Positions 6,399 to 19,670 of a stretch of 19,860 bases of DNA are shown in pieces. Under the pieces are notes generated by a model, which saw only the letters and a list, made by a program, of their open reading frames with translations, was not told the DNA's origin and made no database searches. Made by a program: the position numbers and the translations under genes. Source of the stretch: Candidatus Eiseniibacteriota bacterium. GTDB taxonomy: Bacteria; Arandabacterota; Arandabacteria; JAGLYR01. The number at the start of each line of letters is the position of its first letter. The stretch's first letter is position 1. The stretch is from the NCBI GenBank assembly GCA_023132135.1, contig JAGLYR010000035.1:1-19860 (forward strand), given 5' to 3'.

Positions 6399-7370
6399 GT
6401 GAAAGCCGTGATCCCGGTGGCGGGTGTGGGAACTCGTTTGAGACCACACACGCATACAGTTCCGAAGGCGCTGCTCCAGGTAGCGGGGAAACCGATTCTG
6501 GGGCATATCATCGACACGGTTGCAAGTCTTCAGGTCGATGAAATTATCCTGGTTGTCGGCTACATGAGAGAGAAGATCGAGGACTACGTTTCCAGGAACT
6601 ACAGTCTCCCCATCCGGGCCGTCGTGCAGGAGGAGCCCAAGGGTTTGGGGCACGCGGTGTACGTGACCCGGGAAAGCGTCGCCGACGGGGAACCTCTGCT
6701 GGTGATCCTGGGAGATACCATTTTCGACCTCGATTTCAGTCCCATCGTCAAGGGCGGTGGGAATCTCATCGGCGTCCGGGAGATCGAGGATCCGAGACGC
6801 TTTGGGGTGGTGAAGAGCCAGGGCACCCGGATAGAGGGATTTGTGGAGAAGCCGGAGCGGCCACCGTCGAATCTGGCAATCGTCGGGCTCTACTACTTCA
6901 CGGACGGTGGGCCGCTGTTCAGCGCGCTGGACGAGGTTGTCCGCAGGAACATCAGGACACGTGGAGAGTATCAGCTGACCGATGCTCTCCAGCTGATGCT
7001 GGAAAGAGGTCACGAGATGACGTGTCTCCATATTGAGGGCTGGTTCGACTGCGGGAACCGGGAGACGCTTCTGGAAACCAACCGGTACCTTCTTGATCGA
7101 GTTGGCAAACCGGCAGATCTGGAGACGGCCATCGTTGTTCCGCCCGTCTCTATAGATCCCGCAGCTACGGTGGAGAATTCCATCGTTGGACCCTATGCTT
7201 CTGTGGCGGCGGGGGCCGTGATCCGCAATTCCATCGTACGCAACAGCATTGTCGGGGAGAGGGCCACGGTGGAGAGCACATCCCTGGAGGGGTCATTGAT
7301 CGGAGACAATGCGGTGGTGCGGGATGTGTGCCGGAGGCTCAACGTAGGAGACTCGTCGGAAGTCGCCTAG
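6399..7370 (+). CDS. Sugar-1-phosphate nucleotidyltransferase with left-handed beta-helix tail
   Basis: Forms an NDP-sugar from a sugar-1-phosphate and NTP. The 323-residue protein has an N-terminal Rossmann-like domain with AGVGTRLRP at 8-16, PKAL at 22-25, the metal-binding LGDTIFD at 104-110 (Asp106) and FVEKP at 148-152. A C-terminal run of hexapeptide repeats (about 245-310; [32 protein letters not shown]) forms a left-handed beta helix. It ends [10 protein letters not shown], like long-form RmlA/StrD-type glucose-1-phosphate thymidylyltransferases. The sugar and base cannot be fixed from sequence; mannose-1-phosphate guanylyl- or glucose-1-phosphate uridylyltransferase are alternatives. 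The start codon is GTG, with GGAGGAG at 6388-6394 four bases upstream. Coupling with the upstream isomerase fits an NDP-sugar supply role, for example for LPS or exopolysaccharide. Confidence 0.88.
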
Positions 7371-7371
7371 C

Positions 7372-7418
7372 CTGGGTGATTCATGGAGAGCGCCGGCATT
7401 GCGGTTTCGGAGTCCGAC
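7372..7418 (+). repeat. Intergenic repeat, copy 1 (after the nucleotidyltransferase gene)
   Basis: A 47-base stretch two bases after the nucleotidyltransferase stop matches 19624-19670 in the same orientation at 39 of 47 positions without gaps. The shared identical core is AGAGCGCCGGCATTGC (7387-7402). Its left part, preceded by CTAGCCTGG, also resembles the palindromic elements at 11423 and 19533. Both long copies lie in intergenic DNA 5' of a + strand gene. Confidence 0.7.
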
Positions 7419-7429
7419 GCAGAAACAGC

Positions 7430-8668: not shown

Positions 8669-8687
8669 CAGTGTATTCAGTAGAACA

Positions 8688-8711
8688 AGTCCCTAGTGCG
8701 TAGTCCCTAGT
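8688..8711. repeat. Short direct repeat between metK and lptG
   Basis: AGTCCCTAGT occurs twice, at 8688-8697 and 8702-8711, with a period of 14 bases, in the 108-base gap between the convergent metK and lptG genes. No rho-independent terminator (GC stem plus T tract) is visible in this gap on either strand. Confidence 0.5.
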
Positions 8712-8776
8712 CCGAGGAACAGAGCATCGCAGCCCATGGACCGGTACCGTAGCAGAAAACTGGTGAGAAATGCAGG

Positions 8777-9853
8777 CTACTGATCGGCGCGGATCAGAAG
8801 AAGGATGCCCGCGACGGCAAAGGCCGCGTTGGCGATCCACGCCGCCGCCGGCGCCGGCAACGCCGCCGCTTGGCCAAGAACCTCGCTCACCCGCATGATG
8901 CCGTAGTAGACAAAACACAGAGCCAGGCTGATCCCGAAGCCGAAGGCCAGGCCGCTTTTTCGCCGGATGGCGGACAGGGAAGCTCCCAGAAGGACCACGA
9001 TGAGACTGGCAAAGGGAAAAGCGATTTTCAGGTGCCGCTGGACCCGAAGCTTCTCCACGGCGGAGCCTCCGGCCTGTACCCTCCGGATGTAGATGCCCAG
9101 CTCCCGGAAGTTCATGTTCTCGGGGTCTTTCTCCTCGGCTGCCATGTCTTCGGGGCGTTCTGCGATGTCGGGCCGCCGCAGCTCAGAGAAGATGCTCACC
9201 GCCTCACCCTCCCGTGAGAATGTCCGCACGACCCCATCGTAGAATACCCAGCTGCCGCGATCCCAGATTGCCTTGGCGGCGTCAATTCTCTCGACCAGCT
9301 GGTTGTGGGTGAATCGCTGAATCACGACGCCGTTCATCTCCCGGTTGTCCCTGTCGTAGGTCTTGATGAGGTAGATGCGCCCCCCATCGCCCAGGAGATG
9401 CACGTTGCGGCGGATGGAACCCAAGCGGCGGGGTTTCTTCTTGATGTCATAGTTCTCAATGGTGGTCATCTCCTGGTTGGCGCGTGGAACGACCAACTCG
9501 TTGAACAGGAGGGTCGCGACCGACATCAGGCCGGCGAAGAGGAAAAGAGGCAGGAGCATCCTGCGCACCGACACGCCGGAGGCCTTGATGGCCACCAGCT
9601 CGTTGTGGCGAGCGATCTGTCCCACGGAGAAAAGACTGGCCAGCAGCATTGCCATGGGCAGCGTGATGCTCAGGATGTATGGAATCTGGTAGAAGTAGTA
9701 GCGCCCGACGGTCAGCGCCGGCGTTTGGTGATCGATATAGGTGTCGATCTTCTCCCACAGGTTCACCACGAGCACCAGGAGAATGAACACGGCCAGTGAG
9801 AGAAGGAGGTTTCGCAGGTACTCGCTGAGGACGTAGCGGTCCAGGATTCTCAT
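8777..9853 (-). CDS. lptG: LPS export ABC transporter permease LptG
   Basis: Inner-membrane permease of the LptB2FG complex, which extracts lipopolysaccharide from the inner membrane and passes it to the Lpt bridge. The 358-residue protein has the YjgP/YjgQ layout: an N-terminal helix (about 13-32), two more helices (about 55-75 and 100-120), a periplasmic beta-jellyroll region (about 125-270), and three C-terminal helices (about 277-295, 302-320, 335-355). The coupling-helix region ELVAIKASGVSVRRML (85-100) is typical. The ATG at 9853 overlaps the lptF stop by four bases (ATGA) and gives the family N-terminus; the frame runs further upstream inside lptF, but as noise. The LptF/LptG assignment rests on order and sequence flavour; the two are paralogous. 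Confidence 0.9.
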   Translation of the reverse strand: MRILDRYVLSEYLRNLLLSLAVFILLVLVVNLWEKIDTYIDHQTPALTVGRYYFYQIPYILSITLPMAMLLASLFSVGQIARHNELVAIKASGVSVRRMLLPLFLFAGLMSVATLLFNELVVPRANQEMTTIENYDIKKKPRRLGSIRRNVHLLGDGGRIYLIKTYDRDNREMNGVVIQRFTHNQLVERIDAAKAIWDRGSWVFYDGVVRTFSREGEAVSIFSELRRPDIAERPEDMAAEEKDPENMNFRELGIYIRRVQAGGSAVEKLRVQRHLKIAFPFASLIVVLLGASLSAIRRKSGLAFGFGISLALCFVYYGIMRVSEVLGQAAALPAPAAAWIANAAFAVAGILLLIRADQ

Positions 9854-11199
9854 CTCTCGGTCTCCCGCTCCGGCCCTGTCCCGCGGTTGCGTGTTCTGAG
9901 GGCGCGCCACAGGTGTCCCAGAGCTTCCGGCACGAAGGGTTGCTCCCTGGCTGCGCGGACAAAGACCCACACTCCCAGAATGCCCAGTACGATGTTGGCC
10001 GCCCACATGGACCAGAAGGGAGGAAGATAGCGCCTGTCGGACAGCTGCTCCCCGCCGATCAGGGAGATGTAGTAGAAAAGGATGAAGCCCGCGGAGACCG
10101 CAAGCCCTATCACAAAGCTGCCGTGACGGATGCGCGCGCCCAATGGGGCGCCCAGAATCACGAAGACAATGCACGCGAAGGGAATGGAGAACTTCTTCTG
10201 GAACTCCACCGAATACCGGTTGATCTCCCTGCGGAGGGCGATCTCCCTGCCCGCCTCCGCCTTGAGAGCCTTTCTGAGACCCTGCACGTTGGGTGTGGTT
10301 GAGTCGGCCGGCGCTCCAGGCGTGTCCAGTGAACTACGGATCGACCGGAGGACGTAGCTCTGCGCCTTCTGGCGGGACTGCTCCAGCTGGCCCTCGAGAC
10401 TCTTGACTTTGGCCCGGAGGTCCGTGATGTTCATCTCCCGATCACTCCGGTGCTCTCGCTGGGTCCGTACCAGCGCCGAGCCGGCGTTCTCGATCCGGAT
10501 CTCGTGAGTCCCGAAGGACAGCCGGAAGTACCGGTCCGGTTCCTCCCTGTCGATTTCGTGAATCTCCCCGTCGAACAGCTCAATCGCCAGGGTATTTCCA
10601 TCTTCCGACCAGACGAGGCGGCCCCGGTCTGCAAGGATCGTCTGCGTGGGGCGCGTTCGGTGGGTGCGGTAGATCGTGACCCCCCGAAGGGTGGAGGTCT
10701 TGTCGTCCACATCATCGACCAGAATACTCAAGTCCTTGAAGGGAGAGCTGAAGACGCCGGGTTTGATCTCGAGGACGGGTTTCTTTCGATGCACGGCGAC
10801 CAGGAGGTTGGAGAGGCGGTGATTGGCCTCCGGCAGGACGAAGTGGTTAAACAGGGTGAGTGCCAGGGTCAGGAGCACGGCGGCCCCCAGTAGCGGGAAT
10901 GTCATCTGAAGCAGACTCAGACCGCTGGCCTTCATGGCGGTGGTCTCGTTATCGGCCCCCAGGCGGCCGAAGGCCATTATGGTAGCAATGAGCACCGCCA
11001 TGGGAACGGCCAGGGCGAACATCCAGCCGAGACTCAGGGCGAACAGCTCCAGAACAACAACAGGCGGCACGCTCCGTCCGATGAACAGTTCTAGATAATC
11101 CAGGACAAAGTTGATGACAAGAACAAACAGGACGACCGCAAGTGCAAAGACGAATGGGCCGATGTGTTCTTTGAGGACATACCACCCGAGAATACCCAT
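9850..11199 (-). CDS. lptF: LPS export ABC transporter permease LptF
   Basis: Partner permease of LptG in the LPS exporter. The 449-residue protein has helices at about 14-36, 50-78 and 100-121, a periplasmic domain, and helices at about 337-355, 361-382 and 393-415. The motif NETTAMKASGLSLLQM (84-99) corresponds to the ABC-coupling region. It is longer than E. coli LptF (366 aa). The extra length is mostly a charged, heptad-like helical stretch at about 255-335 (MNITDLRAKVKSLEGQLEQ) just before helix 4, plus a basic C-terminal tail. The ATG at 11199 is preferred because AGGA lies seven bases upstream; a TTG at 11232 in the same frame would add 11 residues. It is first in a two-gene operon and divergent from sprA. 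Confidence 0.9.
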   Translation of the reverse strand: MGILGWYVLKEHIGPFVFALAVVLFVLVINFVLDYLELFIGRSVPPVVVLELFALSLGWMFALAVPMAVLIATIMAFGRLGADNETTAMKASGLSLLQMTFPLLGAAVLLTLALTLFNHFVLPEANHRLSNLLVAVHRKKPVLEIKPGVFSSPFKDLSILVDDVDDKTSTLRGVTIYRTHRTRPTQTILADRGRLVWSEDGNTLAIELFDGEIHEIDREEPDRYFRLSFGTHEIRIENAGSALVRTQREHRSDREMNITDLRAKVKSLEGQLEQSRQKAQSYVLRSIRSSLDTPGAPADSTTPNVQGLRKALKAEAGREIALRREINRYSVEFQKKFSIPFACIVFVILGAPLGARIRHGSFVIGLAVSAGFILFYYISLIGGEQLSDRRYLPPFWSMWAANIVLGILGVWVFVRAAREQPFVPEALGHLWRALRTRNRGTGPERETER

Positions 11200-11261
11200 G
11201 GCTGAATCCTGAGGAACTTCCTTGCTGCACAAGCGGTTAGATCAGTTGCAAGCTCTCTTGC

Positions 11262-11289
11262 CCGGCCCAACCTATCAGGATTGGGCCGG
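11262..11289. promoter_or_regulatory. Stem-loop in the lptF upstream region
   Basis: CCGGCCCAA (11262-11270) and TTGGGCCGG (11281-11289) form a perfect 9-bp GC-rich stem with a 10-base loop. It lies 63 bases upstream of the lptF ATG, inside the 307-base lptF/sprA intergenic region (11200-11506). It lacks a T tract on the + strand, so it is not a standard terminator. It could be a leader structure of lptF mRNA or a protein-binding site. The stretch 11290-11380 holds nothing else I can assign. Confidence 0.45.
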
Positions 11290-11380
11290 CAGAGCAATGG
11301 AGAAGTAAAAAACCAGGGAAGTCGGCCCCGGACGCGCGGTTCCGTTTGCTGGATACCTGGAATCCCCGGATTGTGGTTGC

Positions 11381-11409
11381 TTGACGGTCGGAGATCGGAT
11401 TGCTAACAT
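11381..11409 (+). promoter_or_regulatory. Putative sigma70-like promoter of sprA
   Basis: TTGACG (11381-11386) and TAACAT (11404-11409) are separated by exactly 17 bases, matching the -35 and -10 boxes at 5 and 4 of 6 positions. Transcription would begin near 11416 and give a leader of about 90 bases containing the 49-base palindrome. This is the best promoter-like match I noticed in the window. Confidence 0.55.
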
Positions 11410-11422
11410 CCGCAGCGAGCTA

Positions 11423-11471
11423 GCCTGGATTATGCATGAACCCCAGTCTGGGGTTCATGCATAATCCAGGC
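11423..11471. repeat. 49-base perfect inverted repeat in the sprA leader
   Basis: Arms of 24 bases (11423-11446 and 11448-11471) are exactly complementary around a single central T. Each arm contains GGATTATGCATGAACC. The outer part, GCCTGGATTATGCAT and its complement, is the same as the palindrome after nusA at 19533-19552. The inner GAACCCCAG/CTGGGGTTC part is extra. A further right-half copy, TATGCATAATCC, follows at 11478-11489. If transcribed from the promoter at 11381 it would form a very stable hairpin ending 35 bases before the sprA GTG. Confidence 0.85.
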
Positions 11472-11506
11472 AGAGCATATGCATAATCCCTTGCTCAGGT
11501 AATGCT

Positions 11507-14500
11507 GTGAAACGCCAGACGTTGAGGAAACAGAATCTCTCGCCTCGCGCCAACCGGACCCCGCTCCGGTTGATTCCCGCTGTCGTCTGGCTTCTTCTCT
11601 TTGCAGTGTCCGGTTCCTCCCTCGCTGTGGAATTCTCCGTCAGGCCTCCTGCGACTCCCGGGCAGTGGTGGTTTCAAAAGGGGGATGTGCCCGCCGGAAG
11701 GCTGGGCGAGCAGCCCGCTGCCTTCCTGCGGATTTCGACCAGTCCCGTCGAAGAGACTGCCACCCTGGATTTTGACAACGGTGTGATGGAGTTTGTCTGG
11801 ACCATCAAGGAGTATGAACTTTTCCAGTGGCGGGTTCCCCTGGAGGAGTACATCGGGGTTGAGGGGCGGCGGCGTGTGGAAGAAGCCCGCATCGATATTG
11901 CCCGAAGAAACCTCGAGCAGAGACCCGGGCAGGAGGCGGGGCGGACCGGGATGTCCTTCGATATCCCGGTGACGTTCCCGCGCCACGTGGAGGCCATCAT
12001 TGGGCAGGGGGCAAACCTGGATGTTTCCGGCTCGGAGACTATCTCGTTCAGGGGTGAGTCCACCTACCGGGTGGACGAGAAAGAGAGCGAATTCGGCCGG
12101 CGGTCCAAGTTTCCCCAGCTCGACATGAAACAGCGTCTCCGGGTCAACCTGGATGGAACAATTGGGGAAAAAGTCCATGTTCTCGTTAACCATGACAGCG
12201 AAGTCCAATCGGCCCTTGAGAACCGGATCAAGCTCCGTTACGAGGGTCGCGAAGACGAGATCGTGAAGAAGATCGAGATGGGAAACACGGATCTCTCCAT
12301 CACGGGCGCGCAGTTCGTGAGCTACCGGGGAACTCACCAGGGCCTGTTCGGAGCCAAGATGCTGGCGCAGGTCGGTCCTCTGGACATGTCCATCATCGCG
12401 TCGAAGCGTGAAGGGAAGTCCGCCCGGTCCACCTTCGTTGGAAGGGCGACGAAGGACAGCGTGATGATCTACGACATTGAGTACCAGAAGCGAAAGTACT
12501 ACACGCTGCGGATGTCCAGCGATCCTCACCATCTGGTTTTCACGCAGGGAGCTCTGGACATCCCGACGCGGGTTACCATCTGGGTCGATGACCACGACGT
12601 AACCAACGATGCTATCACAGGCGCCAAGCTGGGCAGCGCGTACCTCTCGGCCGCTGACGAAGAAACCCTCATCGACACGGTGTTCACCGAGGGATACTTC
12701 ACCCAACTGATTGAGACCGAGGACTACTATATCGATCCGGGCTCGGGCATGGTGACCTTCTACCGGCCCCTTCGGGCGGAGCATACCATCGCGGTGTCAT
12801 ACGTTGACTCCAGCGGTGTGCAGGTGGGAAACGCCCCGCGCGGTGTCGACGTCTCAGACACCAGCTTCGTCCTGGATCTGAAAATGATCAAGCCCCGCAA
12901 AGAGCTCATCCGGAGTGAGACGTGGGCCTACACCCGGGGCTATGAGTTCAAGCAGTTCTATTTCCTGGGAAGCCGCAACATCCTTCCCGATGATTTCGAT
13001 CTGGTAATCCGGCGCAAGAGGACGGGCTCCGAGCCCGTCGACCCGGATCGGGAGGAGGGAGAACCCCTGTTCGTGGAGGTGCTGGGGTTGGATGAGAGGG
13101 ACAACCTCACAGGGGAGAGTGAACCCGACGGGCGTGTGGATCCGAAATGGGTGGACTACAGCCTGGGCGTGCTCCAGTTTCCAGACCTCCGTCCCTTCGA
13201 TCCGGATCCGTCCGAGTTTGCCCTGGATCTGAGGAACCCCGAGATCTACGAACTGTACGAGGATGAGATCAACGCTCACCGGCAGGACTACCAGAAGTAC
13301 TACCTGGTGGCGAAGTACCGGACTCCCCAGACCTCCTATACCCTGAACCAGATGAACATCCTCGATGGAAGCGAGAAGGTCATTCTCAACGGGCGGCAGC
13401 TCCAGCGGGGAAACGACTACACCATTATCTACGAGCTCGGCCGTGTGGATCTCCTGGGGGCCGCGGCCGAGGAAGCGCAGAAGCCGGATGCGAACATCTC
13501 CATAGACTTTGAGTACGCGCCGTTTCTCGCGCTGGCCCAGCAGAGTTTGTTGGGGGTGTCGGGGATGTACACCTTCTCGCCAAAGAAGAACCTGGGTTTT
13601 GCGTGGCTGTACGAGAGCAAGTCGACCCCGGAAGATCGTCCCCGGTTGGGACAGGAGCCGTCTCGCTACCAGGTGGCGGACGTCAACGGGCGGTTCGAGT
13701 TCAACCCGTCTTTCATGACTCGGATGGTGGATGCTCTTCCACTGATCCGCGCCGAGAGCCCATCGTCCCTCAAACTCTCGGGCGAGGTGGCCGCTTCTTT
13801 CCCCAACCCCAACACCAAGAACGAAGTGTACATCGATGACATGGAGGGTGTGGAAGACTCGAGGATCTTGTCCATCGCCAGGCGCGGTTGGGTGCCGGCC
13901 AGTATTCCCCACCCGATGGGTTCCTCGGAGCATCTGGAGTTCAACTGGTACAACCCCAGGAACCGGGTGAAGCGGGGAGACATCTATCCCGATCTGGCGG
14001 AACAGGAAAGGGATGAATCCCTCACCATCCTTGAGCTGGACGCATCGCACGCGGAACTGGACAGTACGAACAACTGGGTCGGGCTAATGCGTCTGATCTC
14101 CAAGTCGGGAACCGACCTGTCCGAATCCAAGTTCTTCCAGATTCTCCTCGACGAGGGGAACAGCCCCATCGAGCGGCGGGGAAGGATGCATATTGAACTC
14201 GGAGCCATTAACGAGAATTACCGCAATCCGGGTGTCTGGGAGCTGGACACGGAGGACGCGAACAGCGACGGTGTCCTCGATGCAGAGGAGGACACCGGAC
14301 TCGATGGGATGTTTGGAGAAGACGGCCGCAACGTGCCCGAGGATGACGGCGATGATGACTACTACTACGAGTTTTCCAACCAGGATGAGTACCGCTTCAT
14401 CAACGGGACCGAGGACAACGATCTTCTCGATACGGAAGATCTGGACCGGGACGGCGGACTGGGCGTGGATTCCTATTTCTCGGTAGCTGTGGATCTGGCT

Positions 14501-17413
14501 GACGTCGGGGCCTACCTGGCCCCCGATTCACTGGTAGGCAACTGGCGCGTTCTGCAGATTCCTCTGAGTGATTTTGAGGACGGGAAAATCGGTGATCCGA
14601 TGTGGGAGTCGATTCGCTACGCGAGGATCTGGTTTGAGGACCTTGCCTGGTGGAAGCAGTTGCGGATCGCGTCGATGGAGATTGTGGGGAACCGCTGGCT
14701 GGAGCGAGGAATCCGCCACGTGGCCAGCGGCGACAGCGTGGACGTGGCGGATCTGGGGATTGGCGAGTTTTTCTCCCTCAAGACAGTTAACAACAAGGAG
14801 AACGCGGACTACGACCCGCCCTTCGATCCTGGAGAGGAACGTGGAAGCGTGGGAAAACGGGGCCAGAGAGAACAGTCCCTGGTCTTCGGTTTCGACGAAC
14901 TCGGGTCCAGCCACATGGTCTCGGCCCGCAAGGAGATTCACGAAGTCCGGGGCAACACGGCTCTGAATGATTACACGCGATACGGTACCCTGGATTTCTG
15001 GTTGAAGTCCTACACGATTTCGGAGCCGGACAGCCAGCCGGTTTTTTTCCTGCGGCTGGCCTCGGACCGGGAGAATTTCTACGAGTACCGGGTCCGCCTG
15101 ACAGGCGGTTGGAAATCCATTCAGGTGGATCTTGAAGAGCTATCGAGGGTCAAGCTGCAGAGCGACACGACTACCGTCAGCTACGAGGGCCGATCCGTGG
15201 TGGCGGTCAATCCTGCCGGTGTAGACTACGTGCTGGGGGATCGGTACGAGGTGTACGCAGTCTACGGTCAACCCACTCTCACCAAGGTGGTCCAGATAAC
15301 CGCGGGCGTGATGAACGATCGGGGCCAGCCTCTGAGCGGCGAGGTTTGGTTCAACGAGATCCGACTGAGGGACATAAAAAAGAACGTGGGAATGGCCCGG
15401 CGCCTCACAGCCTCGGCCCAGTTCTCCGATTTCCTCACGTTGAGCGGGGATTTACGCCAGGTGGACGGGGATTTTGCTTCCCTGGGGAGAGAGCGGTCGG
15501 GGCGGGACCAGACGGGGTACTCGCTCGAGGCCAAAGCCGAGATGGGAAAAATGTTGGGGGCGCTTGGCCTCAAGGTCCCGGTGTCGGCCTCGTATCGCAA
15601 GAGCGAGGATCTGCCGCAACTGGTGACCGGGTCGGACATTGTTCTGGACGCTGAAGGCTCAGAGCTTGAGAAGTCCGAGTCGGAAGGGACAGTTTACAAT
15701 CTCTCCGTCTCCAGACCCAAAGCGTCCAAGAATGCCCTGGTTCACCTGCTGCTGGACGGCTGGTCGTTGAGCAGTAGCTGGGCCGAGAAAAAGAGCTTGT
15801 CTCCGGTGAGACGGGAGTACTCGGAGAACGCCGCTGCGTCGGCCTCGTACCGGCTGACTACCCAGCGCCCCGGGCTGCGCTTTTTCCGGGACTTCGAGAT
15901 TGCCTGGCTGCCCAAGGCCGTCCGGTTCTCGGTTGACGCCAAACGGCAGATCAGCCGCTCGTGGGACGTCATGGACCACCGGATGCGCGAGGAACTGCGC
16001 TTCGACCGCGTCACCCGCACCGCTGTGGGCACAGGGGAACTCAATGTCAGTCCCCTGAACTCCAGTACACTCAACACGGACTACTCTTTCAACATGCAAC
16101 GGGATCTGCTCCCCAACAAGACGATTGGGTTTCGGGAGGGGCTGGGATTCGGCCAGGAAATCCGCCGGGGCCAGAGTACAAAGCTCACCTACAAACCAAA
16201 GGTCCTCTCGTTTCTCTCTCCGACCTTTGCCTACGACACGTCCTACCAGGAGGATCAGAGCCCCAACATCCGGCAGGCAGGCGATCCCAAGGGCACCCGC
16301 AAGGCTACCGCCAACAGTACGCTCAGGTGGACGTTCAATGTGAAGATGGCGTCCATCCGGGGGTTTCTGGCCGGTGTGGGAGGGCAGGAAAAGGGTGGCC
16401 CCCAATCCCGGAGCCCCCAGGAAGACGGGGAGGGGGAGCAGGCGGATGAGGGTGAGGAGGAAGCCAAGGAGAAAGGCCGGGCGCTGTGGCTTCTGCCCGC
16501 GGATTTCGTGACGAATCGGATCCAGCAATTCAACGCCACTTTCACCGTGACGAGGAACTCCAACTACGAGCGGATCCTGGAGCGGCCGGACTGGATGTAC
16601 CAGTTCGGTCTCGTGTCCGAGATTGCCTCCGATCTGGCCGCCCAGTCCCTTTCCAAGGGCCGGGATACGCGCGGGGAGAAGCGTTCCACGTCGCTCCAGG
16701 GGAGTGTGGTCCCGATCTTCGATATCTCGCTCTCCGTCAAGTACGGCTCGAGCGAGGACACACGCTGGGTGGCGGGTGGTGCCAGGGAAACCCGGTCCCG
16801 GACGTGGCCCGATCTGGGATGGTCCTACGACGGCATCGAGCGGTTTGCCTTCCTCAACAAAGTCCTGACCCGGGGCAGCATCCAATCCGGGTACATCCGG
16901 AAGACGGATTCGTCCGGCCCCTTGGGAACAGAGGAGCGCTCTACGTCGCGGACCGAATGGTCGCCGCTTCTGTCCCTGAACACCACAGTCAAGGGCAACA
17001 TCACCTCCAGCTTCTCCATGGGGCGCTCGTCGGAGCAGACGGATGAGAGGGTCGGCGCAGGGGTGAAGACCGGGTCGGTCCGGGCCAACTACCAGTTCGG
17101 CCTCAAGTACTCGTTTTCCCTTCCCCAAGGAATGGGAATGCCTTTGAAACGACTGGGCAGCGGCAAAGGCGGCGGAGGGAAGGTTTCGCTGAGTCTGGAC
17201 GTTACCTACAACACGAACAAGAGCGAGAACCTGACCTCGGGGGATGTCACTGCCGAGAGTACGCGGCTTTCCATCGTGCCCAAGGCTACCTACACTTTCA
17301 GCCGCAACATGAACGGAAACCTCAACGCCAAGTTCGGGCAGGATTCAGACGTCAAGCGCGGACGGACCACCCGCACCATCGGGCTAGGGGTAGAACTGAG
17401 TATCAAATTCTAG
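11507..17413 (+). CDS. sprA: SprA/Sov-family outer-membrane type IX secretion translocon
   Basis: Giant beta-barrel protein family that forms the outer-membrane pore of the type IX secretion system. The 1968-residue protein starts with a signal peptide: basic N-terminus, hydrophobic VVWLLLFAVSGSSLA, cleavage predicted after Ala40. Family marks are YIDDMEGVEDSRILSIARRGW from residue 775, an Asp/Glu-rich segment at about 914-993 (DANSDGVLDAEEDTGLDG, DDYYYEF, NGTEDND), many amphipathic beta strands, and a C-terminal strand ending in Phe (GLGVELSIKF). An acidic low-complexity insert lies at about 1624-1660. It is shorter than Flavobacterium SprA or Porphyromonas Sov (about 2400-2500 aa). Translation starts at GTG with only AGG at 11497-11499 as a weak ribosome site. 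No other T9SS gene is in the window, so an intact system is not shown. Confidence 0.85.
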   Translation: MKRQTLRKQNLSPRANRTPLRLIPAVVWLLLFAVSGSSLAVEFSVRPPATPGQWWFQKGDVPAGRLGEQPAAFLRISTSPVEETATLDFDNGVMEFVWTIKEYELFQWRVPLEEYIGVEGRRRVEEARIDIARRNLEQRPGQEAGRTGMSFDIPVTFPRHVEAIIGQGANLDVSGSETISFRGESTYRVDEKESEFGRRSKFPQLDMKQRLRVNLDGTIGEKVHVLVNHDSEVQSALENRIKLRYEGREDEIVKKIEMGNTDLSITGAQFVSYRGTHQGLFGAKMLAQVGPLDMSIIASKREGKSARSTFVGRATKDSVMIYDIEYQKRKYYTLRMSSDPHHLVFTQGALDIPTRVTIWVDDHDVTNDAITGAKLGSAYLSAADEETLIDTVFTEGYFTQLIETEDYYIDPGSGMVTFYRPLRAEHTIAVSYVDSSGVQVGNAPRGVDVSDTSFVLDLKMIKPRKELIRSETWAYTRGYEFKQFYFLGSRNILPDDFDLVIRRKRTGSEPVDPDREEGEPLFVEVLGLDERDNLTGESEPDGRVDPKWVDYSLGVLQFPDLRPFDPDPSEFALDLRNPEIYELYEDEINAHRQDYQKYYLVAKYRTPQTSYTLNQMNILDGSEKVILNGRQLQRGNDYTIIYELGRVDLLGAAAEEAQKPDANISIDFEYAPFLALAQQSLLGVSGMYTFSPKKNLGFAWLYESKSTPEDRPRLGQEPSRYQVADVNGRFEFNPSFMTRMVDALPLIRAESPSSLKLSGEVAASFPNPNTKNEVYIDDMEGVEDSRILSIARRGWVPASIPHPMGSSEHLEFNWYNPRNRVKRGDIYPDLAEQERDESLTILELDASHAELDSTNNWVGLMRLISKSGTDLSESKFFQILLDEGNSPIERRGRMHIELGAINENYRNPGVWELDTEDANSDGVLDAEEDTGLDGMFGEDGRNVPEDDGDDDYYYEFSNQDEYRFINGTEDNDLLDTEDLDRDGGLGVDSYFSVAVDLADVGAYLAPDSLVGNWRVLQIPLSDFEDGKIGDPMWESIRYARIWFEDLAWWKQLRIASMEIVGNRWLERGIRHVASGDSVDVADLGIGEFFSLKTVNNKENADYDPPFDPGEERGSVGKRGQREQSLVFGFDELGSSHMVSARKEIHEVRGNTALNDYTRYGTLDFWLKSYTISEPDSQPVFFLRLASDRENFYEYRVRLTGGWKSIQVDLEELSRVKLQSDTTTVSYEGRSVVAVNPAGVDYVLGDRYEVYAVYGQPTLTKVVQITAGVMNDRGQPLSGEVWFNEIRLRDIKKNVGMARRLTASAQFSDFLTLSGDLRQVDGDFASLGRERSGRDQTGYSLEAKAEMGKMLGALGLKVPVSASYRKSEDLPQLVTGSDIVLDAEGSELEKSESEGTVYNLSVSRPKASKNALVHLLLDGWSLSSSWAEKKSLSPVRREYSENAAASASYRLTTQRPGLRFFRDFEIAWLPKAVRFSVDAKRQISRSWDVMDHRMREELRFDRVTRTAVGTGELNVSPLNSSTLNTDYSFNMQRDLLPNKTIGFREGLGFGQEIRRGQSTKLTYKPKVLSFLSPTFAYDTSYQEDQSPNIRQAGDPKGTRKATANSTLRWTFNVKMASIRGFLAGVGGQEKGGPQSRSPQEDGEGEQADEGEEEAKEKGRALWLLPADFVTNRIQQFNATFTVTRNSNYERILERPDWMYQFGLVSEIASDLAAQSLSKGRDTRGEKRSTSLQGSVVPIFDISLSVKYGSSEDTRWVAGGARETRSRTWPDLGWSYDGIERFAFLNKVLTRGSIQSGYIRKTDSSGPLGTEERSTSRTEWSPLLSLNTTVKGNITSSFSMGRSSEQTDERVGAGVKTGSVRANYQFGLKYSFSLPQGMGMPLKRLGSGKGGGGKVSLSLDVTYNTNKSENLTSGDVTAESTRLSIVPKATYTFSRNMNGNLNAKFGQDSDVKRGRTTRTIGLGVELSIKF

Positions 17414-18078: not shown

Positions 18079-19527
18079 ATGAACTACGAAATCATTGAGG
18101 CGCTGGGGCGGATCGCGCGGGAGAAAAATGTGGACCGCGAAATCGTCCTGGAGACCCTGAAAGCGGGACTCATCTCCGCCGCCCGCAAGAAGTACGGTTC
18201 CGCCGCCAACGTTGAGGTCAGGATTGACGACGAGGAAGGCGAGCTGGAAGTTTCGCTCATCAGGAACATTGTGGAGGAAGTGACCGACCCGGTGATCGAG
18301 ATCAGCCTTGGGGAGGCGGAGGAGTGTGACGAGAGAGCTGTCGTTGGGGGAACGGTCAGGATCTCCCTTGCCTTGGAGGATTTCGGGCGGGGGGCGATCC
18401 AGGCAGCCAAGCAGGTGGTGATTCAGAGGGTCCGTGAGGCAGAGCGTGAGAAAGTCCACGAGGACTACTCCGAGAAGATTGGTGAGGTTGTCTCGGGTGG
18501 GGTGCAGCAGATCGACCACGGCAACGTCCTGATCAACCTTGGGCGGACCGAGGCCGTCCTGCCGGTGAGGGAGAAGATCCCGCGTGAGCAGCTTCATCAG
18601 GGGAGCACGATACGGGCCTTGGTCCTCGACGTTCAGAAAGTGGCCAAGGGCCCTCAGGTGATTCTCTCCAGGGCGCACCCTGATTTCGTGCGCCTGCTGT
18701 TCCAGATGGAAGTGCCGGAGATCCTCGAGGGAGTGGTGGAGATCAGGGAGATTGCACGGGAGCCTGGTGCCCGGACGAAGGTTGCCGTCGAGTCGTCGGA
18801 CCCTCGCGTCGATCCCGTGGGCGCATGTGTGGGTATGAAAGGGTGCCGGGTTCAAGCTGTGGTGAGGGAGCTGGGCGGCGAACGGATTGATGTGGTGACC
18901 TACTCGTCGGAACCGATCTCATTTGTGAGTCGTGCGCTCAGCCCGGCGCGCGTTGTCCATCTCCAGATGAACGAAGAAGAGAGAGCCATGACCGTCGTGG
19001 TCCCGGACGACCAGCTTTCGCTGGCCATCGGGAAAGGTGGGCAGAATGCCCGGCTCGCGGCGAAACTCACACGCTGGCGGATCGACCTGTTGAGCGAGAG
19101 CGAGTTCAGCAAGAGGCAGGAGGTCTCCAAGGAAGCTCTTGTGCAAGTGGAGGATCTGCCGGGTATTGGTCCAAAGCTGGCCGAGAAACTGGTTTCCGAA
19201 GGATTCGAGACGGTGGAGGATATCCTCCGGTTGGGTGAAGAAGCGCTTCTGGCCGTGCAGGGTGTTGGAGAAAAAACGGTGGCCAAGGTCATGGCCGTGG
19301 CCGAGGCGGTGCGCGAGGCTCTGGCAGAGGAGTCTGGCGAACAGGATTCCGAGGAAGAAGAACAGCAGGTGGAGGAAGTGGCGGATACCACCGAGGCAGA
19401 AAATGAGACCGAAGAGCCAGCGGTGGACGAAGAGGGAGCCGGGGAGAGTGATGAACAGGCGGCTGTCTCCGATAAAGGACTGATTGACAAGGAAGATCAG
19501 GCCGGGACGGAGGAGACGGGGAGCTAG
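18079..19527 (+). CDS. nusA: Transcription termination/antitermination factor NusA
   Basis: RNA polymerase-binding factor that modulates pausing, termination and antitermination. The 482-residue protein shows the N-terminal polymerase-binding domain (1-130), an S1 domain (about 135-200; [15 protein letters not shown]), KH1 with [16 protein letters not shown] (247-262), and KH2 with [19 protein letters not shown] (313-331). A helix-hairpin-helix segment (about 355-412; [25 protein letters not shown]) and a strongly acidic tail (about 416-482) follow. The position usually Ser in the KH1 GMRGSR motif is Cys. GGAG at 18067-18070 lies eight bases before the ATG. A repeat element follows within a few bases of the TAG stop. 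Confidence 0.96.
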
Positions 19528-19532
19528 CCTGC

Positions 19533-19552
19533 CTGGATTATGCATAATCCAG
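19533..19552. repeat. 20-base palindrome after nusA
   Basis: CTGGATTATGCATAATCCAG is a perfect palindrome beginning six bases after the nusA stop. It equals the outer parts of the 49-base inverted repeat in the sprA leader, without that element's central 25 or so bases. It is AT-rich in a GC-rich setting and has no T tract typical of an intrinsic terminator. Confidence 0.8.
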
Positions 19553-19623
19553 TTTCAACTCTCTACTTTCTGGCCCAGCAGGAGCATACAGCGCCGGGCC
19601 GGAGAACTTATGCGTAGAGTAGG

Positions 19624-19670
19624 CTAGGTTATTCATGAAGAGCGCCGGCATTGCAGTCTCGGGCTCCGCC
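19624..19670 (+). repeat. Intergenic repeat, copy 2 (downstream of nusA)
   Basis: Matches 7372-7418 at 39 of 47 positions, including the identical core AGAGCGCCGGCATTGC (19639-19654). The left end, GGCTAGGTTATTCATGAA, resembles the palindromic elements: its reverse complement TTCATGAATAACC aligns with TTCATGCATAATCC at 11454-11467. It sits 33 bases before the start of the last gene. Between 19553 and 19621 I see nothing assignable. Confidence 0.7.

Follow-up and report, generated by a model that had tools for sequence, protein, structure and literature searches.

The window analysed here, a 19,860-nucleotide stretch of contig JAGLYR010000035.1 from a Candidatus Eiseniibacteriota bacterium, contains a divergent gene pair formed by lptF (9850–11232, minus strand) and sprA (11507–17413, plus strand), a pairing that is conserved among relatives. 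The sprA reading frame opens with a GTG at 11507, encodes 1968 residues, and matches the SprA profile TIGR04189 at 498 bits, with a cut-off of 200. In the gap between the two genes, on the plus strand at 11381–11409, lies a σ70-type promoter-like site, TTGACG-N17-TAACAT, recognized by consensus match only (9 of 12 positions). Immediately downstream of this site is a perfect 49-nucleotide palindrome (11423–11471) with the arm GCCTGGATTATGCATGAACCCCAG, the two halves of which (11423–11446 and 11448–11471) are complementary at 24 of 24 positions around a single central T (11447). The palindrome is bounded on its left by CTAG (11420–11423) and is followed, on the plus strand, by AGAGCA (11472–11477) and by a third half-copy, TATGCATAATCC (11478–11489). 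In longer copies of the element, AGAGCA opens a conserved tail located behind the hairpin. On the right, where CTTG is found and not CTAG, the boundary is unrecognizable. The GTG start codon of sprA is located 35 nucleotides past the palindrome.

The initial annotation of the window had described this arrangement, and the 24-bp arms with their one-base centre, the third right-half copy, the preceding promoter, and the 35-base spacing to the GTG of a 1968-residue protein were all found where it had placed them. It had also judged so exact a palindrome to be unlikely by chance, and simulation agrees: when the window was simulated 15 times with a first-order Markov model and loops of up to 10 nucleotides were allowed, the longest perfect palindrome measured 8–10 bp, as compared with the 24 bp observed.

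Several other repeats are present in the window. In the same lptF/sprA gap, a second module (11260–11307, plus strand) consists of a different, imperfect hairpin (11260–11290) followed by the same tail, AGAGCAATGGAGAAGTA. On the nusA side, a stretch of about 105 bp between TAGCCTG and AGGCTA (19525–19629) contains a short palindrome, GCCTGGATTATGCATAATCCAG (19531–19552), a member of the sprA palindrome's family from which the hairpin tip, GAACCCCAGTCTGGGGTTC, is missing; the kinship of the two, with extra central sequence in the sprA element, had been recognized in the initial annotation and is borne out. Tip-less copies resembling the nusA-side one also occur at L075, L108, and L024. Upstream of metK, a left arm, GCCTGGGTGATTCATGGA, is joined to a repeat tail common to other intergenic sites (7369–7425, plus strand). 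Between the metK stop codon and the 3' end of an lptG-like ORF lies the end of another IS1380-type MITE (8724–8779, minus strand), including an exact copy of a sister arm, TAGCCTGCATTTCTCACCAG, at 8760–8779. The repeat AGTCCCTAGTGCGTAGTCCCTAGTCC neighbours this end (8678–8779), and the metK/lptG gap consists of repeats.

A dispersed family of hairpin elements

A genome-wide search, which the initial annotation had suggested as a check on the palindrome, uncovered a large family of related sequences. Counts were obtained by pattern searches of the 3.4-Mb host genome, and copies were studied as stretches around the matches. With up to three mismatches, the arm GCCTGGATTATGCATGAAC was matched 162 times (84 forward and 78 reverse), as compared with one match for the reversed control, and a T-variant of the arm was matched 165 times (84 + 81), with no match for its control. 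A 22-mer with 58 + 59 matches in the host gave a single match each in 2 of 40 other genomes, while the 17-bp core of the arm was present in just 3 of 385 other genomes; the nearest genomes available to all of these comparisons belong to the same class as the host. Family copies diverge from one another by about 2–20%. By simple longest-ORF gene calls, 51 of the 60 sites with usable context are intergenic, and they occur in all three orientations.

In about ten copies (for example, L008, L059, L087, L091, L114, L120, and L140), the upstream ORF stops exactly at the TAG that flanks the element; since the family's target motif includes a stop codon, an element inserting at the TAG that already ends a gene would do no damage. 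Fifty-three family sites lie no more than 150 bp from where an examined stretch stops, in most cases at a contig end (in G000, for example, C83, C153, C206, C257, and C332), and the repeats are probably behind much of the fragmentation of the assembly into 345 contigs. Beyond the host, the T-variant arm was carried by one contig among the IMG/VR contigs, in an element of about 183 bp bounded on both sides by CTAG and possessing the same ends (L175, IMGVR_UViG_3300031452_000089, positions 1057–1240). An element of about 178 bp with the same ends, flanked on both sides by a direct repeat of CAAG, was also observed in a genome outside the class (L167 in G042, positions 1340–1517).

Copies range from hairpins of 43–62 bp to elements of 152–176 and about 200 bp. 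The long copies of the subtype found in the window (L121, L123, L134, L003, and L161) begin with TA and the hairpin, continue through a tail, AGAGCARTRGAG, that contains an inner inverted repeat, and end with a right-end arm, ATGCATAATCYAGGC, and a second TA. To the left of the 162 arms the sequence TAG is conserved (T in 130, A in 133, and G in 158), with positions beyond it close to random; the TAG within the CTAG that bounds the sprA copy is this conserved flank. Typical family flanks read NTAG...CTAN and are not clean direct repeats. Only TA is repeated on both sides, as it is in most copies, and of 35 copies with both ends, just 3 show a 4-bp direct repeat (CTAG). A size within about 30–300 bp, the lack of a transposase gene, terminal inverted repeats, and many dispersed copies place the family among the MITEs, a well-known kind of element.

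Approximately 30 family copies fold into hairpins like that of sprA and display many paired (compensatory) changes. Aligning 22 hairpins of the subtype found in the window showed pairing in 94.6% of the cells and changes on both sides in 9 of 21 pairs; when the partners in the same 22 hairpins were slid by 1–3 columns as a control, pairing did not exceed 38%. Either selection has acted on the structure, through transposition or through the RNA, or the arms have been mutually corrected by template switching.

Hairpins with unrelated stem sequence were found to bear the same tail (L160, L162, and L164), an observation that is not predicted by a model of a simple MITE with terminal inverted repeats. 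An unlikely reading of these copies is that the elements are modular, with a conserved AGAGCA(A/G)T(G/A)GAG tail placed behind interchangeable, unrelated hairpins and a left end that would be recognized by its fold-back shape and not by its sequence. Recognition of this kind would explain the preservation of palindromy through paired changes, and it would amount to a hybrid of the IS1380-type mode, which acts on double-stranded terminal inverted repeats, and the REP-type mode, which acts on hairpins. Nothing else in the family is as unusual as its hairpin-plus-tail build, in which the hairpins are exchangeable.

Element ends and IS1380 insertion sequences

IS1380-family loci were found through PF13701, and the ends of the elements were read beside the transposase genes, three of which match NF033539 (IS1380) at 366–391 bits, with a cut-off of 180. 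The end CCCGGATTATTCACGAAC of the element at L177 (G038) agrees with the family arm at 15 of 17 positions, and the end CCCGGATATTTCATAAA at L176 (G036), present at both termini with TTAG on both sides, agrees at 13 of 17. Among 5000 random 250-nt flanks, the best agreement was 13 of 17, reached in 5, and 15 of 17 was never reached. The host itself carries one intact IS1380 transposase gene (C139), and the right end of this element, CCCGCATTTCTCACCAC, matches the sister arm TAGCCTGCATTTCTCACCAG at 15 of 17 positions; the sister arm has 214 matches in the host genome, with none for its control. Some elements (L096, L109, and L232) combine the two arm types, a hairpin-type arm forming one end and the sister arm the opposite end. 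The end matches, the sister arm, and these mixed-end elements tie the family to IS1380, and not to IS630 or RAYT.

No autonomous element with exactly the arm of the sprA palindrome was found in the assembly, where the intact IS1380 element bears the sister arm and agrees with this arm at 10 of 17 positions, within chance. The ends read in G058 (10 of 17) and in an IMG/VR element (9 of 17) are likewise at the chance level (range 8–11 of 17), and IS1380 relatives on viral contigs have only the outline of the end in common with the family. The intact transposase gene of the host (L031, G000:C139) adjoins an apparent IS3-type element, and the left end of its own element was not found. An IS630-type mobilizer, with its TA target, was rejected, as the host genome contains no DDE_3 transposase.

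The sprA leaders of relatives, whose comparison had also been proposed in the initial annotation, were compared within the class of the host. The divergent lptF/sprA gap measures about 90–130 bp in G001 and G003, depending on the start codons chosen, as compared with about 275–310 bp in the host, a difference of about 190 bp, and the extra length in the host contains both the sprA element and the second module at 11260–11307. The element is absent from seven same-class genomes, and no palindrome of at least 12 bp was found in any same-class sprA locus examined, some of these loci being partial.

We consider it probable, at roughly 0.8, that the palindrome forms the hairpin at the left end of a non-autonomous MITE with IS1380-type ends, that the sprA copy has been internally deleted, and that the family was spread in trans. 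The reading as a left-end hairpin draws on the family members and their paired changes. A full copy of about 200 bp would comprise, between flanking TA dinucleotides, the hairpin arm GCCTGGATTATGCATGAACCCC, a loop, the inverted arm, the AGAGCA tail with its inner inverted repeat, and a right-end arm terminating in ATGCATAATCCAGGC. In the sprA copy (11423–11489), the middle would have been lost by internal deletion, leaving the hairpin, AGAGCA, and the half-copy TATGCATAATCC, which the full-length copies L121, L123, L134, L003, and L161 suggest is a remnant of the right end. An IS1380-family transposase would have acted in trans on the terminal arms to spread the copies. The proposal in the initial annotation of a recent mobile-element insertion holds as regards mobility, which is strongly supported by the dispersed, high-copy family, its transposon-type ends, and its absence from relatives; that the insertion is recent is not supported by the 2–20% divergence among copies, nor by any clean target duplication at this site.

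Alternative origins and the effect on sprA

Palindromic, intergenic, high-copy sequences with a TAG foot, arranged in mosaics, are also what would be expected of REP/BIME-type repeats, short palindromes with GTAG at one foot that a RAYT (Y1 tyrosine transposase) moves as single-stranded DNA hairpins. In one subtype, 13 of 25 right arms carry GTAG, and one Y1_Tnp-like fragment was detected in the genome. That match, however, is short (62 positions in a 112-aa frame), no arm lies at its locus, and no full-length RAYT was found. Moreover, the stems of 21–24 bp contrast with the 6–9 bp of most GTAG REPs (PMC3733652), the tag is present on both feet and is mostly CTAG or TTAG, the arms agree with the ends of IS1380 elements, and in some copies the two ends differ although both are of IS1380 type, all of which makes an origin through RAYT quite unlikely. 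An assembly artefact in the middle of the palindrome could be a chimera, which the initial annotation had named among the findings that would overturn its reading, or a fold-back, and the 53 copies at the edges of fetched stretches, mostly contig ends, indicate that the family does disturb assembly. Since the two sides of the palindrome are different, unique sequences of a divergent lptF/sprA pair conserved in relatives, and the structure is common to many independent copies, such an artefact is extremely unlikely.

Selection on RNA structure was considered in the form of a conserved cis-regulatory leader hairpin controlling SprA and other genes. The element lies between the promoter-like site and the start codon, the fold of the leader RNA is very stable (z = −6.95), and the paired changes are strong, with both sides changed in 9 of 21 pairs and 94.6% of cells paired against at most 38% in the slid controls. 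Paired changes can, however, also arise through template-switch repair of quasi-palindromes or through transposition that selects hairpin ends, and the same family is found between gene ends, between genes, and between gene starts, and is absent from the sprA leaders of relatives. Sixteen hairpin-plus-tail copies could be scored for the gene towards which the tail is directed; it leads to the start of that gene in 10 cases and to its end in 6, with no clear preference. No Rfam family scored above the gathering threshold for the palindrome; the matches obtained at E-values of 0.009–0.5 were to eukaryotic snoRNA and miRNA models far below the gathering score, and were rejected as chance on a perfect hairpin. 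A conserved regulatory leader of this kind is accordingly very unlikely, and site orientations and tail directions across the family give no indication of a general regulatory role.

What the element does at sprA is a separate matter. Situated just past the promoter, it should be transcribed as a 5' leader hairpin of great predicted stability, expected to begin about 7 nucleotides past the predicted transcription start. No terminator-like site (a stem followed by a T run) is present on the plus strand at the palindrome. In the centroid structure the start region is unpaired, and because the hairpin leaves it free, a repressor role is unsupported; the idea in the initial annotation that SprA expression is restricted by an mRNA hairpin is further weakened by the location of the palindrome 35 nucleotides upstream of the GTG and by the tail counts given above. 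Its further suggestion of a protein-binding site survives only insofar as the element's end would be bound by a transposase, and implies no host regulator. 5' hairpins are known to stabilize some bacterial mRNAs. It is conceivable, though doubtful, that an element of mobile origin was co-opted at sprA, its 5' hairpin shielding the transcript from 5'-end-dependent decay and raising SprA output, and the predicted position of the hairpin and the unpaired start region are consistent with this; the perfect arms, however, may merely reflect a young copy or template-switch correction. A mild stabilizing effect of the hairpin on the sprA transcript is possible. As the hairpin does not cover the start codon, the effect of the inserted MITE is most likely nearly neutral, or limited to a mild protective effect at the 5' end of the mRNA.

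Relation to known elements and significance

With the IS1380 family (ISEcp1, IS1247; NF033539), the elements share the terminal arm CCYGGATT.TTCA... and ends placed beside TTAG- or CTAG-like sequence, and an intact transposase is encoded in the host genome. They differ in having no transposase gene, in arms that are 2–4 of 17 bases removed from the two closest IS1380 ends, and in the extra fold-back hairpin at the left end. IS1380 is used as the prokaryotic outgroup of piggyBac, the target duplications of which are usually TTAA and occasionally TTAG/CTAA (PMC10813416), and these duplications resemble the flanks of the present family. Like the Correia elements of Neisseria (CREE/NEMIS) and MITEs generally, the elements are short, high-copy, intergenic, TA-flanked, palindromic, and transcribable as hairpins; unlike the Correia elements, they have IS1380-type ends, a hairpin-plus-tail architecture, and short deletion derivatives of about 43–61 bp. 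With REP/BIME sequences and their RAYTs, they have in common dispersed intergenic palindromes in mosaics, and they are set apart by longer stems, by a TAG at each foot, by ends of IS1380 type, and by the failure to find a full-length RAYT.

MITEPye1 of Paracoccus yeei (IS1182-type, with 1–3 chromosomal copies; PMC11578231) and the TIMEs (Tn3-type, usually single copies; PMC4133298) were likewise placed in IS families on the basis of their ends, and their RNAs are predicted to fold as hairpins. They belong to other IS families and are present in 1–3 or single copies, in contrast to the well over 100 arms counted here. No earlier IS1380-type MITE was found in the most relevant open-literature papers on IS1380 and MITEs; one further paper names both IS1380 and MITE and draws no link between them (PMC9330008). 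The sprA element is ordinary in kind and new as a family.

A single cause accounts for the striking palindrome and for several other odd repeats in the window, and a large IS1380-type MITE family has been identified in an uncultured lineage. The case also cautions against taking perfect hairpins of this kind to be gene-specific regulators, while the some 30 diverged hairpins of the family offer a natural set for studying how perfect palindromes are maintained.
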